Shown: piece by piece, positions 38,988 to 48,909 of the stretch
How positions within the stretch are numbered: position 1 is the first letter of the stretch
Layout of the letters: the number at the start of each line of letters is the position of its first letter
The notes under the pieces: model-generated
What the model saw: the letters and a program-made list of their open reading frames with translations, nothing else
Told to the model about the DNA's origin: nothing
Databases searched by the model: none
Program-made: the position numbers and the translations under genes
Assembly (NCBI RefSeq): GCF_026427595.1
Contig: NZ_CP101527.1
Span: 2,017,501 to 2,081,500 of the forward strand
DNA length: 64,000 nucleotides
Source of the DNA: Alkalimarinus sediminis
GTDB taxonomy: Bacteria; Pseudomonadota; Gammaproteobacteria; Pseudomonadales; Oleiphilaceae
Reading direction: 5' to 3'

Positions 38988-39386
38988 CTAGTTGACCGTA
39001 ATGTCACCAGATTGGCTTTTTTGGCTTAACGCGGTCACTAGCTCCGCTTCGGGGCGTGATATTCCGCAACTATTCATCAAGTCTTCGACGTCAGCACCTA
39101 ACTCAACTAATCGGCTAGCCTCTGTATAGGAGACTCTGTTTGGGTCGTTTTTAACCATTTCATCTTGATTATGCTTTAGTGCCGCTATCTGTTTTTCGAG
39201 CATGATCAGCTTTCTACCGACGCCCATAGAACCACTACCAATAGCCTGAAGCTCTTGATTGACGGTTTTCAGTCGCTCACTATGCTCTTTCCTTTGTTTG
39301 CTAATGATATGTCTTAGAAAAAGGACATACCCTACTAACACCGCAGTGGCAGTCAAACTCAGCAATGGTGCATATTGTTCCAGCAT
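38988..39386 (-). CDS. DUF2802 protein
   Basis: A 132-residue protein of unknown function. It has an N-terminal membrane segment (about residues 7-25), a coiled-coil middle, and a C-terminal helical domain with EASRLVELGADVEDLMNSCG (first 20 residues) and SRPEAELV, diagnostic for DUF2802. The same gene follows cheW in Pseudomonas and Marinobacter-type flagellar clusters, so a link to chemotaxis or flagella is suggested by position only. Confidence 0.85.
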   Translation of the reverse strand: MLEQYAPLLSLTATAVLVGYVLFLRHIISKQRKEHSERLKTVNQELQAIGSGSMGVGRKLIMLEKQIAALKHNQDEMVKNDPNRVSYTEASRLVELGADVEDLMNSCGISRPEAELVTALSQKSQSGDITVN

Positions 39387-39475: not shown

Positions 39476-39964
39476 TTAAAGACTAGACATATCAGCCCAC
39501 TCGTCTTCGCTGAGCATTTTTTCAAACTCAACAAGGATAATAAGCTCACCATTTTTATTACAAACACCTTGGATAAATCGAGCACTCTCTTCATTACCGA
39601 CATTGGGCGCAGTTTCAACCTCGGACTGTTTTAAGTAAACCACTTCTGCAACAGAGTCGACCAATACGCCAACGACCTGTCCGTCGATTTCCAACACAAC
39701 AATTCGGGTATGGTCAGAAATATCAGACTGACTCAACCCAAACCGCTTTCGTGTATCTATAACAGTCACCACATTACCTCGGAGATTAATAATCCCCAGC
39801 ACATAATCTGGCGCTCCTGGCACGGGTGCTATCTCCGTATAACGTAACACTTCCTGTATTTGCATTACGTTGATGCCATACGTTTCATCGTCTAACCGGA
39901 AAGTTACATACTGGAAGATAGGATCTTCTGTTGTTTGACCACTATGCCCTGTACTAGATGCCAT
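39476..39964 (-). CDS. cheW: Chemotaxis coupling protein CheW
   Basis: Bridges chemoreceptors and CheA. The 162-residue protein starts its domain at FQYVTFRLDDETYGINVMQ (residues about 18-36) and carries the conserved NLRGNVVTVIDTRKRFGL and a VDSVAEVV segment. It has its own sigma-28-like promoter upstream and is 215 bp from parP, so it may be expressed apart from the cheA operon. DUF2802 follows 89 bp downstream. Confidence 0.96.
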   Translation of the reverse strand: MASSTGHSGQTTEDPIFQYVTFRLDDETYGINVMQIQEVLRYTEIAPVPGAPDYVLGIINLRGNVVTVIDTRKRFGLSQSDISDHTRIVVLEIDGQVVGVLVDSVAEVVYLKQSEVETAPNVGNEESARFIQGVCNKNGELIILVEFEKMLSEDEWADMSSL

Positions 39965-40179: not shown

Positions 40180-41328
40180 TTAAATAGGCGACTGATTGGT
40201 TTTTTCTGCGCTATCAAGTAAACGGGCAACCGCCGCTACATCCATCAAAGCGCACATATGATCAATAACCGTGCCCGCCAGCCAGGGCCGCTTACCTCGG
40301 TCAGTTCTCCAACGCACCTCTTCTGGCGAAATTGAAAAAGACTGGGCAACAGAGTCACAGGCCATACCCCACTCGCTTTTATCTAGACGAATAACGAAAC
40401 GATAGCCATCTTTCACGCTTTCGTTGTAACGCTCAGGCATAATCCATAACGCTGAGTCCACCACTCTTATATTCTTCTCTCCGACTGGCAATAATCCTAA
40501 GAACCAGTCTGGCCGCCCCACTAATGGGGTTAGCTCTTGGTCAATTGTATGAATCGCGCCTAGCGATACAAGCGGAACCGCTAACTTCAGGCCTGCCACA
40601 GTGAAAATCAAGCATTCAAAACGGCCTTGAGCCCACTCTGGGCGACCATTTTCAAGCCACTCATCTGAATGCTTTTCTTTTTCAATAGACGCGGTTTTTT
40701 TCGCTTCGGCCACTGAATTATCAGGTGCAGATTCAACCTGTCTAGTGGTTGGCTGGTCAGGGGGTGGCTGTTTAAGAGGAGATTGCATCGGCACACTGCA
40801 AGGCACCTCGGCAACTTTATTCTTTGGCGTCTCTTCTGCCACCTTTATTTCGGCTAGCGCAGACTCCACGTCTTCCGCTGAGATCTTTTTAGCAACAGCA
40901 GCTTCTCTTATTACCGGGCTATCTGTTTTGAGGTCAAGCGCGCTGCTTTGCACCTCTGGCATTGCTTTTAGAAGCGGTGACGGCTTGATAGTTGGCGGCT
41001 CGCGAAAGTCTCGCCTAGAAGCTCTATCTAACGCTCTTTTTTGCTCTAGTCGCTGTGCCGCAAGAGAGGTCTCTCGACCGGCGCTGTAGTTCGCCCCAAC
41101 AGTACGATAGCTAGGATTATACCTTGTTTTAGATTCTGGCTTATGAGCTGGTTTGCTCACTGACTTTTGCGCTTTTTGTTTATCTGCAACAGTGGCAGCT
41201 TTATCTTCCTCTTGTTGTCTCAACCTATCGAGTGGCGAAGTTGCTGGTAGTTTTTGCAGCAGGTCGTCTAAGTAATCTTGCACCGCAATTTGGGGGTTGA
41301 TGGTGTCACTATACCGCTTATTACTCAT
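40180..41328 (-). CDS. parP: CheW-like polar array protein ParP
   Basis: A 382-residue protein with a short N-terminal motif (PQIAVQDYLDDLL near residue 12), a long proline/charge-rich linker (about 35-225), and a CheW-like AIF domain from about residue 237 (FECLIFTVAGLKLAVPLVSL). In Vibrio and Pseudomonas, ParP sits between parC and cheW and tethers CheA arrays to the pole through ParC. The order here is parC, a short gene, then parP, then cheW. Its ATG overlaps the preceding short gene by ATGAGTAA. Confidence 0.88.
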   Translation of the reverse strand: MSNKRYSDTINPQIAVQDYLDDLLQKLPATSPLDRLRQQEEDKAATVADKQKAQKSVSKPAHKPESKTRYNPSYRTVGANYSAGRETSLAAQRLEQKRALDRASRRDFREPPTIKPSPLLKAMPEVQSSALDLKTDSPVIREAAVAKKISAEDVESALAEIKVAEETPKNKVAEVPCSVPMQSPLKQPPPDQPTTRQVESAPDNSVAEAKKTASIEKEKHSDEWLENGRPEWAQGRFECLIFTVAGLKLAVPLVSLGAIHTIDQELTPLVGRPDWFLGLLPVGEKNIRVVDSALWIMPERYNESVKDGYRFVIRLDKSEWGMACDSVAQSFSISPEEVRWRTDRGKRPWLAGTVIDHMCALMDVAAVARLLDSAEKTNQSPI

Positions 41329-41830
41329 GACGTATCCCTCCTGCTGATGGCAGTTGGGTGATATCTGTAAGTAATCGACATTCCATTATCCGTTGACGAC
41401 AATGTTCAAATACAGATAAGCGCAGTCGGCCTGCTATTGGCATTCGTAATAAGTGCAAACCCCATAACAACAGCAAAAAAGAAGCAGACTTTGATCTCTG
41501 GGGGCGGGATAAATCTAATCGATACCGCTCTAACGAAACAAGCGGAATCAGAGAGTAGCCGGGTTTGATGTTATTTGAGTTTACCAACTGCGGGTCTGAA
41601 GAGGTGTTTGAATGAGCGAGACTATCGCAATGCACGTCGCCCACAGATTCTGCCTTAGTAGCATGATCAGTCGAAGAAGCCGACTCATGGGCTGTTGCTG
41701 ATTCAGTTAGCTTATCAGACTCAAGGGTAGTGCCGGAGTATAAAAGATCTCCAATATAGCTGTTCATCGCATCATTAGGCGATACTACAGTGTGCTGAAT
41801 TTCAGCCGACTGATTGCGATCACGACTCAT
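41321..41830 (-). CDS. Short gene between parC and parP; possible truncated ParP paralogue
   Basis: A 169-residue protein that I cannot assign by family. Its N-terminus (SPNDAMNSYIGDLL) is like that of ParP next door (NPQIAVQDYLDDLL). A polar S/T/D-rich linker follows. Near residue 123 the segment FLLLLWGLHLLRMPIAGRL resembles the first strands of the ParP AIF domain (CLIFTVAGLKLAVPLVSL), but the chain ends soon after, so any CheW-like domain would be incomplete. Stop and start overlap with parP (ATGAGTAA) implies coupled translation. It could be a decayed duplicate or a small partner; both readings are inference. Confidence 0.6.
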   Translation of the reverse strand: MSRDRNQSAEIQHTVVSPNDAMNSYIGDLLYSGTTLESDKLTESATAHESASSTDHATKAESVGDVHCDSLAHSNTSSDPQLVNSNNIKPGYSLIPLVSLERYRLDLSRPQRSKSASFLLLLWGLHLLRMPIAGRLRLSVFEHCRQRIMECRLLTDITQLPSAGGIRHE

Positions 41831-41926: not shown

Positions 41927-42712
41927 TTATCCTGCATTAACTGTTTCGCTTTCCCTAATATTTTCCAGCAGTTTTTTATAGGCTCGTACACCATGAGTAG
42001 AGGCATCAAGCTCTGAAGGCACAACACCTAACCGACTGGCATCTCTAAATTTAGTATCGATCGGAATAGCATATTTCCATACCTGATTACCCCATGTTTG
42101 TTTAACCGCTCTAAGACTCTGCACTGATGCTTGTGTTCGTCTATCAAACATGGTCGGAATAATGGTATACGTCAATTTACTTTTTTGAGATTTAATCACC
42201 ATATCGAGCGTATGCATCATTCTTTCCAAACCCTTTAGGGCTAAAAACTCGGTCTGAACAGGCACCATTAGGTGCTGGCTAGCGGCTAACGAGTTGATCA
42301 TCAATACACCTAAAGACGGTGTGTTGTCGATCAGCACATAATCAAATTCATCCCATAAAATGGCTAACGCTCGAGAGATAATCAAACCCATGCCATCAAC
42401 CCCAACCATACGTCTTTCAAGCGTGGCGAGCGCCGTAGATGCAGGAAGCAACTTTAAGCCAGGCATGGATGTTTTAACGATCAATGTTGCGGGCAAGTCT
42501 TCTGGCACTTTTCCTTGATGCAAAAACAGATCAAATGCACTGTGTTCAATAGTGTCTGGGTCATATTTGAAGTAGCTTGTCAGAGAGCCATGAGGATCAA
42601 GATCCATCAAAAGCACTCTCTTACCTTCTTTGGCCAACAACCCACCTAACGCAACAGTGGTCGTTGTTTTGCCGACTCCACCTTTCTGATTTGCAATTGC
42701 CCAGATACGCAC
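41927..42712 (-). CDS. parC: ParA-like polar ATPase ParC
   Basis: A ParA/Soj-family ATPase of 261 residues that positions chemotaxis arrays at the old pole. The deviant Walker A reads NQKGGVGKTTT near residue 8. The Walker B-like YVLIDNTPSLG and VPVQTEFLALKGL segments fit ParA. The frame continues upstream, but I start at the GTG at 42712: AGAGG lies 7 nt before it and the protein then begins RIWAIANQKGG as in relatives. Note the name also denotes topoisomerase IV subunit A, which this is not. Confidence 0.9.
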   Translation of the reverse strand: MRIWAIANQKGGVGKTTTTVALGGLLAKEGKRVLLMDLDPHGSLTSYFKYDPDTIEHSAFDLFLHQGKVPEDLPATLIVKTSMPGLKLLPASTALATLERRMVGVDGMGLIISRALAILWDEFDYVLIDNTPSLGVLMINSLAASQHLMVPVQTEFLALKGLERMMHTLDMVIKSQKSKLTYTIIPTMFDRRTQASVQSLRAVKQTWGNQVWKYAIPIDTKFRDASRLGVVPSELDASTHGVRAYKKLLENIRESETVNAG

Positions 42713-42763
42713 AGCGCAACCTCTTCTCTTTATGTATATTAAAATCAACAGCCTGAGGTAGTT

Positions 42764-45841: not shown

Positions 45842-48109
45842 TCACGCGTAACGCTGCAACAAACTAGGAATATCGAGAATCAATGCTATACGGCCATCAC
45901 CTGTTATTGTTGCCCCAGACATACCTGGGGTACCGTGCAACATTCGGCCTAAAGGCTTAATAACCACTTCTTCCTGACCTACTAACTGGTCAACAACAAA
46001 ACCGACACGCTTAGTCCCAACTGAGACTATCACGACATGGGCTGAGTCACTCTCTGGCTCATTCGGAATATTATTAACCAGCCAACGTTTGATATGAAAT
46101 AGAGGATATACGTTATCTCTAACCACTACGCACTCTTGGCCATCAACAATATTGGTGCTTGATAGATCAAGATGAAAAATTTCAACAACGCTCACTAGCG
46201 GAAATGCAAATGATTGATCATCAAGCAATACCATCAATGTCGGCATGATAGCCAACGTCAAAGGTACTTTGATAATAATGTGTGATCCGCTACCTTTTTC
46301 TGAATCAATTGAGATGGTGCCATTAAGCTGAGTGATTTTGGTTTTAACCACATCCATTCCAACACCACGACCAGAAACATCGGAGATCTCAGTTTTGGTC
46401 GAGAAACCAGGGGCAAAAATAAGATTGAAACACTCAGTATCAGTTAAACGTTCAGCCGCATCTTCATCATAAAGCCCTTTCTCTACAGCCTTACCTCGAA
46501 GTACATTCGGGTCCATACCGGCACCGTCATCTTCAATAGAAAGCAAGATATGATCACCCTCTTGCTCAGCTGCTAATATGACTCGTCCGGTTCGAGGCTT
46601 GCCATTTGCCTCTCTAATGTCAGGCAGCTCGATACCATGGTCCACTGCATTTCTAACCAAGTGAACTAGTGGATCAGATAGCGCTTCAACCAGATTTTTA
46701 TCTAAGTCGGTATCTTCACCTTTTAAGACCAGGTTAACTTCTTTCTTCAAGTTTCTGGCAAGATCTCTAACCACTCTAGGGAATCGGCCAAATACTTTCT
46801 TAATCGGTTGCATACGGGTCTGCATGACCGCAGATTGCAAGTCTCCCGTTACGACATCTAAATTAGACACCGCTTTTTGCATTGACTCATCTTCACTTTC
46901 ATCACCCAGACGCTTAAGACGGTTCCTCACCAACACGAGTTCACCGACCATATTCATAATATCGTCAAGGCGTTTAGTATCTACCCGAACCGTTGTTTCA
47001 GTCGCGATAGACTGCTCTTTGCCAGCAGGCTTCTTAGCCGCCTGAGCTGCAGGTTTTGGTGCTGCTTTGGGTTGAGGCGCTGGTTTTGGCGTTGGTTTTG
47101 GCGTTGGTTTATTGACAGGCGCTTCAGCGTCTGTTGCCGTTGGCCCTTTACCCTTACCATGAAGATCATCTAGTAGTTTTTCGAATTCACTATCATCAAT
47201 GATGTCAGATGCACCATCAGCGTTAGGCGATTCAGCAGAACCTGGTTTATCTGCCGCTGGCTCACTACCTGCTACCTCACCCTTAAATTGGCCTTTGCCG
47301 TGGAGATCATCAAGTAGCTTTTCAAACTCATCATCGGTGATTTCATCAGAATCTGACGCTTGCGGTGCAGGGGGTTCTTCAGCAGGGGCTTCCGCAGCCG
47401 GCACTACACTGCCATGCTTACCTGCTCCGTGGAGGTCATCAAGTAACTTTTCGAACTCATCATCGGTAATTTCATCACTTGGTTGCGCTGAGGAAGGTGC
47501 ATCGCTGGCTTCATCTGCAGGAGCCGATGCATTGGTCTCAGGTGAATTGGTCTCAGGTGCATCAAGCGCACTCAGTAACTGCTCAAATTCGTCATCGGTA
47601 ATATCACCCTTCTCGTCGCTACTATCATCAGAAGGTGATTCAATGGGTCTATCTGCAGCAGGTTCTTCTGCGGCAGTGTCATCCGTTGCTGCGGGTTCTG
47701 TTTCTACGCCAGATTCAGACTCCGGAACAGCAAGTTTTGCTAGCGCTTCGATTAATGAGGGATCTGCAGGAACAAGCTCTTCTCTGTTTCTACACTGTTC
47801 AAACATCTCGTTGACGGCGTCAAGTGCCTGCAGCACGACATCCATAAGCTCAGCATCAACTCGACGTTTGCCATTACGAAGAATATCAAACACATTCTCC
47901 GCCACGTGGCAGCATTCAACTAACGCTTCAAGCTGTAAAAAACCAGCTCCGCCCTTGACTGTATGAAACCCACGAAAGATCGCGTTAAGCAAATCCGTAT
48001 CGTCCGGATTTTGCTCCAAATCCACCAGTTGCTCTGACAGAAGCTCAAGAATTTCCCCTGACTCTACTAGAAAGTCCTGAAGAATCTCTTCATCCGCTTC
48101 AAACCCCAT
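45842..48109 (-). CDS. cheA: Chemotaxis histidine kinase CheA
   Basis: Central kinase of the flagellar chemotaxis system. 755 residues: P1/Hpt domain with His49 in FRGFHTVKGGAG, and a long acidic, proline-rich linker about 130-365 in place of a recognisable P2. Then P3 (VDTKRLDDIMNMVGELV near 377), P4 kinase with the N box LVHLVRNAVDHG, and a C-terminal CheW-like P5. The linker holds four copies of a D-EFEKLLDDLHG-type motif (about 169-181, 211-228, 254-271, 301-318). I start at the ATG at 48109, which has GAGGAG 7 nt upstream; the frame extends to a TTG at 48124. Confidence 0.96.
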   Translation of the reverse strand: MGFEADEEILQDFLVESGEILELLSEQLVDLEQNPDDTDLLNAIFRGFHTVKGGAGFLQLEALVECCHVAENVFDILRNGKRRVDAELMDVVLQALDAVNEMFEQCRNREELVPADPSLIEALAKLAVPESESGVETEPAATDDTAAEEPAADRPIESPSDDSSDEKGDITDDEFEQLLSALDAPETNSPETNASAPADEASDAPSSAQPSDEITDDEFEKLLDDLHGAGKHGSVVPAAEAPAEEPPAPQASDSDEITDDEFEKLLDDLHGKGQFKGEVAGSEPAADKPGSAESPNADGASDIIDDSEFEKLLDDLHGKGKGPTATDAEAPVNKPTPKPTPKPAPQPKAAPKPAAQAAKKPAGKEQSIATETTVRVDTKRLDDIMNMVGELVLVRNRLKRLGDESEDESMQKAVSNLDVVTGDLQSAVMQTRMQPIKKVFGRFPRVVRDLARNLKKEVNLVLKGEDTDLDKNLVEALSDPLVHLVRNAVDHGIELPDIREANGKPRTGRVILAAEQEGDHILLSIEDDGAGMDPNVLRGKAVEKGLYDEDAAERLTDTECFNLIFAPGFSTKTEISDVSGRGVGMDVVKTKITQLNGTISIDSEKGSGSHIIIKVPLTLAIMPTLMVLLDDQSFAFPLVSVVEIFHLDLSSTNIVDGQECVVVRDNVYPLFHIKRWLVNNIPNEPESDSAHVVIVSVGTKRVGFVVDQLVGQEEVVIKPLGRMLHGTPGMSGATITGDGRIALILDIPSLLQRYA

Positions 48110-48120
48110 GCAAGCACTCC

Positions 48121-48909
48121 TCAAAAACCTAGACTGGAGAGTAAATCATCCACATCATCTTGGCTCGAAACCACATCAACACGCTCTTCGGCGTTCATCT
48201 GAGGCCCTTCACCACGCTCAATATTATTTTCTTGTTTTTGTTCTAATCCTTCGTGAACGGTACCTGTAATCTGGTCTACCTTACCGGCCATTGCCACTAA
48301 GCTTACTAGGTTTTCCTCAACCTCCTGCACTAGCCCGGTTACCCGCTTGATAACCTGACCTGTGAGATCTTGAAAATCTTGCGCCAATAATATGTCGGAC
48401 AAGTTTCGATAAACTTTATCCGATTGGCTGCTTAATTTATCAAGAAATAGGTCCATTCTTTTATACAGTTGACGAAACTCATCGGGGTTCATCTCCCGTC
48501 TACGCAACTTAGCCCAATCTTCTTTTAAGATATCTGCCTCTTCTTTCATTTCTGAAGCAATAGGCATGCTCTCTTCAACAAGATCGAGTGTTTTGTTCGC
48601 TGCCTTATTGGTCATATCGACCACATAGGACAAGCGATCGGTCGCATCATCAATTTTAGAAAGCTCTTCTTGATCAGCCGACCTAGCCGTATCGATCTGA
48701 AAGTTCCTTATTGATTCGTGCAGAGTCCGCGTAAGACGGCCCACCTCTTGGTATAGACTTTGATCTCTAGTCGCGTTTAGGTCAGAGATAACCTTTAACG
48801 CTTCGGAGATATTACCTGAGTCAACTAAGTCTTTCAGATCAGCCGCCTGACTCTTGAGCTGCGTTTCAAATCCTGACATATCTTGCGAATTATCTTCTTT
48901 ATTTGTCAT
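48121..48909 (-). CDS. cheZ: CheY-P phosphatase CheZ
   Basis: Dephosphorylates CheY-P. 262 residues, mostly helical, with the conserved catalytic region LAQDFQDLTGQVIKRVTGLV near residue 182 (the active-site Q is in QDFQDLTGQV) and a C-terminal CheY-binding peptide DVDDLLSSLGF. It is 14 bp after cheY and its end is followed by cheA after 11 bp. Confidence 0.96.
   Translation of the reverse strand: MTNKEDNSQDMSGFETQLKSQAADLKDLVDSGNISEALKVISDLNATRDQSLYQEVGRLTRTLHESIRNFQIDTARSADQEELSKIDDATDRLSYVVDMTNKAANKTLDLVEESMPIASEMKEEADILKEDWAKLRRREMNPDEFRQLYKRMDLFLDKLSSQSDKVYRNLSDILLAQDFQDLTGQVIKRVTGLVQEVEENLVSLVAMAGKVDQITGTVHEGLEQKQENNIERGEGPQMNAEERVDVVSSQDDVDDLLSSLGF

Follow-up and report, generated by a model that had tools for sequence, protein, structure and literature searches.

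The parC–parP junction in Alkalimarinus sediminis

The window, by which is meant the whole stretch of 64,000 nucleotides that was analysed (contig NZ_CP101527.1, positions 2,017,501 to 2,081,500), carries on its minus strand, in this order, a MotB-type gene (PF13677/PF00691), parC, a short open reading frame (ORF), parP, cheW, and a DUF2802 gene (Table 1). The original prediction, made from the sequence, placed a gene between parC and parP and proposed that it overlaps parP. Both points are confirmed, with an ORF of 169 aa on the minus strand and an overlap of 8 bases, ATGAGTAA. The start of parP is overlapped by the short gene in all four of the copies found in the genus. Near the C-terminus a Gly-Gly pair, residues 164–165, is conserved in the three sequences compared; it may be kept for the overlapping ribosome binding site of parP, since the AGGAGGG sequence sits there.

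Table 1. Features of the parC–parP region and its surroundings, in window coordinates
Feature	Position	Strand	Basis
Short ParP-motif gene (169 aa)	41321..41830	-	ORF; homologues, same place, in three other genus genomes
N-terminal ParP-type motif SPNDAMNSYIGDLLY, residues 17-31; predicted helix 18-30	41738..41782	-	
Variable linker, residues 32-84; length differs by species	41579..41737	-	
C-terminal domain, residues 85-159, homologous to family C-domain	41354..41578	-	
AGGAGGG in last codons of short gene; probable parP ribosome binding site	41336..41342	-	Read from sequence
parP (382 aa); N-motif residues 11-24, CheW/AIF domain 238-369	40180..41328	-	ORF list and Pfam
parC, ParA-like ATPase	41927..42748	-	PF13614 E 3.8e-44
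cheW	39476..39964	-	PF01584 E 6e-42
DUF2802 gene	38988..39386	-	PF10975 E 1.2e-20
cheA, same cluster; four spaced EFExLL-type repeats	45842..48124	-	Named from sequence alone

The ORF is kept in four of the five genomes of the genus and is under purifying selection. For the whole gene, pS is 0.65–0.80 against a pN of 0.19–0.45 in the six genus pairs. Between the window copy and that of genome G004, residues 85–162 give a pS of 0.74 and a pN of 0.13, and the N-terminal part a pS of 0.47 and a pN of 0.16, while the linker between these conserved ends is nearly free to change, like that of ParP. ParC and the AIF domain evolve more slowly than the short gene, which is nonetheless clearly constrained, and the genus copies have neither the relaxed selection nor the broken frames of a pseudogene.

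In the fifth genome of the genus, G001, there is no short gene at the junction, nor a match to its C-terminal domain anywhere in the genome at E ≤ 1. Here the sequence found ahead of the short gene in the sister genomes runs directly into the start of parP, which is the arrangement that a deletion between two similar gene starts would be expected to give. The short gene has likely been lost in this genome, the place of which within the genus is not fixed by a three-gene tree. The leader that directly precedes parP in G001 (L010:2647-2743), and that is 5' of the short gene in the sister genomes, contains repeated TTCGATATGAGT-like units.

The two conserved ends of the short protein

It had been claimed that the short protein and ParP begin with a common motif, and this has held up: the letters that were quoted are exact and the match is above chance for its place. 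Among the 90 window ORFs of at least 80 aa, the motif pattern is present only in the short ORF and in ParP. Against a profile of ParP N-termini from outside the genus, the four genus copies score 11.2, 7.7, 5.8, and 4.2 bits, scores that are reached by 0–2 of 5000 shuffles. In profile-profile comparison the N-terminal parts of the short protein and ParP align with a probability of 93% (P 3.5e-7), and the whole proteins with a probability of 58% (P 9.9e-5), where the aligned region is the motif only. The match weakens when the profile contains only the five genus ParPs: its score is then reached by 26–83 of 5000 shuffles and exceeded by one unrelated window ORF. In a search of proteome size (Z 4000) the motif alone would not be significant, the four copies having E values of 0.52, 2.7, 7.4, and 8.1, so that the case rests on the motif together with its place and its recurrence in a family of such proteins.

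In the sample of the order, the pattern [YF][LIVFMY]xx[LMVI][LFMI] is found within the first 80 residues of 125 of 127 ParPs, and the two that do not have it (at loci L108 and L118) are without a true N-terminus. With a slightly stricter pattern the count is 123 of 127, the Tyr at the key place being present in all 123 and followed mostly by Leu-Asp. The likeness of the N-terminal motif to that of ParP stands, and it is too short to separate descent from convergence.

Ahead of the motif Tyr there is no Lys or Arg in 14 of 24 short sequences, against 12 of 123 ParPs, a comparison that can be taken as a hint only, start codons having been assigned by a rule in the ParPs and judged by eye in the short proteins. 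The 24 sequences include a doubtful case (G007) and leave out a near-copy (G342). The window copy has two basic and three acidic residues in the 24 residues preceding the motif Tyr, its start codon being uncertain; the genus copies have two to three basic residues before the motif, and the sequence from G386 has six. If the starts are right, this would hint that many of these proteins bind without the charged tail described as acting on the ATPase in such partners.

A segment in the remainder of the protein had been likened to the strands with which the AIF domain of ParP begins, and this part of the original prediction is not borne out. When the C-terminal part was compared, profile to profile, with the C-terminal 165 residues of ParP, hhalign gave a probability of 0.4% over 7 columns; there is no Pfam CheW match, and both AlphaFold2 models have helices only, at low confidence. 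The 7 columns correspond to the letters PLVSL, on which the reported likeness seems to have rested, and these are not kept in two of the four genus copies. A profile of the C-terminal domain has no match among the 127 ParPs (best E 0.73), and PF01584 (CheW) is matched by none of the 12 short proteins scanned, the window copy and 11 others.

In the window copy the C-terminal domain consists of a G-x-x-L-I-P-L segment and then two predicted helices, at residues 114–129 and 134–159. The AlphaFold2 models, which were made with three sequences, contain no strand and have a pLDDT of 44.8 (whole protein) and 53.4 (C-terminal part). From these predictions the domain, of about 60 residues, would be a pair of helices. 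The window copy has no match in Pfam or NCBIfam, and searches of the PDB gave only an unrelated best match at E 0.71 by sequence and none up to E 1 with the C-terminal domain profile.

A family of short proteins at the parC–parP junction

A profile of the four genus copies has no true relative outside the genus in 390 genomes of the order, and a scan of genome contigs gave two loci only, both from genus members. Matches to this profile in two further genomes, three hits with internal stops, were taken as chance. The gene restricted to the genus that this suggested was overturned by reading the parC–parP junctions themselves, the family being one that a single-clade profile search misses and that reading of the same operon gap reveals. 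In the order, 130 loci were read, from 35 of 140 genomes of the same taxonomic family with a ParP match and 95 of 100 from other families. Both parC and parP are present at 127 of the 130, with a gap of at least 150 bases at 17. Fourteen of these 17 long gaps, the doubtful locus L082 among them, contain a short ORF with the ParP motif at its start, and there is no such ORF at 113 of the 127 junctions. At L080 nothing was found in a gap of at least 150 bases. There is a masked stretch inside parP at L108 (genome G307), and at L118 (genome G318) parP looks split, with its N-terminus and AIF domain in separate ORFs; the long junction gap at each of these loci is without the short gene. In the other orders of the class, 60 of the 68 genomes with a ParP match were read. 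Both genes are present in 59 of these, none of the 59 junctions has the short gene, and 58 of the gaps are no longer than 34 bases; the other, at L193, is 505 bases and contains no ORF of 50 aa.

Profile A4, built from 13 of the short proteins, was searched against 381 whole genomes of the order and matches 33 of them at E ≤ 0.1, of which 19 are at E ≤ 1.2e-3. Ten genomes outside the model are found at the latter threshold, eight with the match between parC and parP and two (G258 and G197) with it elsewhere. Among the eight, G342 was already known and is a near-copy of G322, a row of the model, and the contig of G251 breaks off within parP. Of the 14 weaker matches, 11 were examined (G291, G443, and G506 being left out): eight are by position at the N-termini of ParPs, two have internal stops, and one is a member (G490), the C-terminal part of which scores 34.9 bits, with none of 5000 shuffles as good. 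With a profile of the C-terminal domain only (A7, 22 rows), 26 of 356 genomes have a match at E ≤ 0.01, of which 20 are strong (19 in the model, and G342), one is new, and five are weak and partial. The new one, G386 (E 6.9e-6), has an ORF of 98 aa at the parC–parP junction, with the motif at its start, and the N-terminal motif formed no part of the search that found it. The weak partial matches (G215, G226, G240, G273, and G318; E 5.8e-4 to 0.006) were not counted as members, nor was a second match in G386 (E 0.0084). Outside the order, in 229 genomes of the class, the whole-length profile found only the N-terminus of one ParP (G596).

Homology of the C-terminal domains was assessed with the protein's own taxonomic family left out of the model and the N-terminal motif cut off. 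Under these conditions 20 of 22 sequences beat all 2000 of their shuffles, the exceptions being G003 (equalled by 6 of 2000) and G007 (49 of 2000), and, when the model contains other families only, the C-terminal part of the window copy reaches 19.1 bits. For the domain the consensus is G-x-x-L, a gap, and LxLLxLLxxLPxSRL, from which it can be called the LxxLPxSRL domain. In G007 (locus L082) the motif is present, the C-terminal part is not clearly homologous, and the search with the domain profile gives no match there.

In total there are 24 members in four families of the order (f1, f6, f7, and f38), 21 of them from the 356 genomes of the order sample and three from genus mates, with G007 as one doubtful addition. 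All but three of the 24 lie between parC and parP (the window copy and 20 others). The window protein has both the ParP-type N-terminal motif and the homologous C-terminal domain, in addition to its place between parC and parP. None of the 12 members scanned reaches a Pfam cut-off, the sub-threshold matches of 5 out of 10 members (E 0.055–0.24) being to unrelated families and disregarded, and there is no NCBIfam match for the two members scanned. Among the papers listed by the literature searches, no title or abstract opening names a gene in the parC–parP interval. The original prediction knew of no described member of this kind, which agrees with the literature, Pfam, NCBIfam, and PDB searched; the gene does, however, belong to a family of at least 24. 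It has been maintained as part of a family of short proteins, apparently undescribed, that is tied to the ParC/ParP system.

On a parC tree of 133 rows, 21 of which carry the gene (the doubtful L082 included), presence of the gene at the junction requires 9 changes, where shuffled labels need 19.9 on average. Homology of the C-terminal domain is the reason for reading the history of the family as a single origin followed by repeated losses; alternatively there may have been several gains, or transfer. The short gene is dispensable, since it is absent from most of the ParC/ParP genomes read and from G001.

In three genomes, G258, G197, and G490, the junction is empty, with gaps of 83, 55, and 105 bases, and each has one convincing copy of the C-terminal domain elsewhere, on account of which the copy seems to have moved. 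These copies away from parP retain both the motif and the C-terminal domain. In G258 (L226:718-4706) the member adjoins, and is divergent from, an MCP gene (PF00015 E 5.5e-28), and in G197 (L227:3745-7727) it is beside, and divergent from, what is by sequence likeness a close look-alike of the same MCP. In G490 (L225:2117-3780) it follows an ODP-family gene (PF19583 E 4.5e-73) at a distance of 18 bases. ODP proteins are oxygen sensors of chemotaxis. The link to MCP and ODP genes, from three genomes and two sites, is only suggestive. A SpoIIE-type phosphatase with a receiver domain is also near the relocated member, by Pfam in G258 and as look-alikes in G197. The member in G490 also lies behind a protein of 214 aa that resembles, by eye, a degenerate receptor tip and has no Pfam MCP match.

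Possible roles at the ParC-based anchor

In ParP, the N-terminus has been assigned both interaction with ParC and dimerisation, and the AIF domain at the C-terminus connects with MCPs and CheA (PMC5706961); the ParC site is assigned here on that basis to this end of ParP as a whole and not to exact residues. The short protein is like ParP of Vibrio and its relatives in its N-terminal helix motif, in its operon place beside parC, and in having a linker between conserved ends. It differs in having another C-terminal domain, of about 60 residues, in place of the CheW-like AIF domain, and in being less than half as long (in the window, 169 aa to the 382 aa of ParP). With CheW and the CheW-domain coupling proteins it shares the gene cluster, but it has no CheW domain by Pfam or by profile comparison.

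The short protein is probably a second partner on the ParC side, without an array-binding domain, that tunes or redirects polar anchoring. It would be a fast-evolving protein of three parts, with a ParP-type N-terminal helix, a variable linker, and a C-terminal domain of its own. The helix would dock on ParC or pair with the N-terminus of ParP, which is the most likely mode given the published binding of ParC and dimerisation by that part of ParP. Unlike ParP, the protein would bring along no array-binding domain, and its C-terminal domain might contact another polar or receptor component or make dimers. The outcome would be that ParC-based polar anchoring is tuned, or given a second connection. 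Counting against this reading are the poor structure models, the weakness of the motif at proteome scale, the many ParC/ParP genomes read in which the gene is missing, and the frequent lack of basic residues ahead of the motif Tyr. It had been proposed that the protein is a partner using only the pole- or ParC-facing part of ParP; this fits the evidence as far as the N-terminal end is concerned, while the rest is a domain of its own and not a stub of AIF. Reuse of the ParC-facing end without the array domain would amount to a natural separation of two ParP functions, and the lineages with and without the gene are a ready set in which this could be tested.

How the C-terminal domain would contribute can be read in more than one way. 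Tentatively, the protein could be a competitor that occupies ParC, or pairs with the N-terminus of ParP, and so sets the number of tethered arrays, the C-terminal domain being a dimerisation module only. This would suit a ParP motif that comes without an array domain, as well as the 14 of 24 sequences without basic residues before it, but the genus copies and G386 do keep such residues, if their uncertain starts are right, and in our judgement the conservation of the C-terminal domain seems beyond the need of a generic dimeriser.

It is rather doubtful, though conceivable, that the protein is an adaptor, in which the N-terminal helix holds ParC and the target of the C-terminal domain is a polar landmark (FimV/HubP) or else one specific receptor or sensor. 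Conservation of both ends around a free linker is consistent with this, as are the orphan copies beside chemotaxis genes, an MCP gene in G258 (and, by likeness, in G197) and an ODP gene in G490. One review describes how ParC is tied to the pole as open and the factor linking ParC to HubP as unidentified (PMC7534058). However, the gene is missing from most of the ParC/ParP genomes read, and the neighbours of the orphan copies, in three genomes at two sites, may be chance. That the ParP-type helix grips ParC while the C-terminal domain grips a polar landmark or selected receptor, thereby linking ParC to the pole, is unlikely; were it the case, the family would supply, in the lineages that carry it, the link between ParC and the pole. 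FimV, ParC, and ParP of Pseudomonas putida are the subject of prepublished work, cited in PMC12918733, that could bear on the family.

It is improbable that the motif is simply a general amphipathic helix and that the protein serves, for example, in ParP folding or in control of parP translation. The overlap with parP in the genus, with a Shine-Dalgarno sequence within the gene end, and a motif too short for significance in a proteome-sized search would allow it, but the profile match to ParP is far above shuffles and copies remote from parP keep the motif and the C-terminal domain. Finally, the suggestion that the gene is a decaying, functionless partial duplicate of parP, for which its short length, its fast-changing linker, and its clean absence from G001, where the leader is joined directly to the parP start, could be cited, is largely refuted and very improbable, given its retention in the genus with near-saturated synonymous and suppressed amino-acid change, a C-terminal domain unrelated to AIF that is homologous in three other families as well (four in all), and the relocated single copies.

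The partner proteins of ParA/MinD-type ATPases place an N-terminal peptide on the ATPase and bind cargo with the rest (PMC10241942). The second ParC-side partner proposed here would be like these, ParB, MinE, and McdB (PMC10241942) and TlpT (PMC5706961), in likely having an N-terminal segment for the ATPase with a different module behind it. The family differs in that the charged tail would, if the start codons are right, often be missing, and in that its binding to the ATPase is putative. Elsewhere in the same cluster, the linker of CheA contains four spaced DDEFEKLLDDLHG-like repeats, at residues 177, 221, 264, and 311, which are perhaps repeated docking sites.
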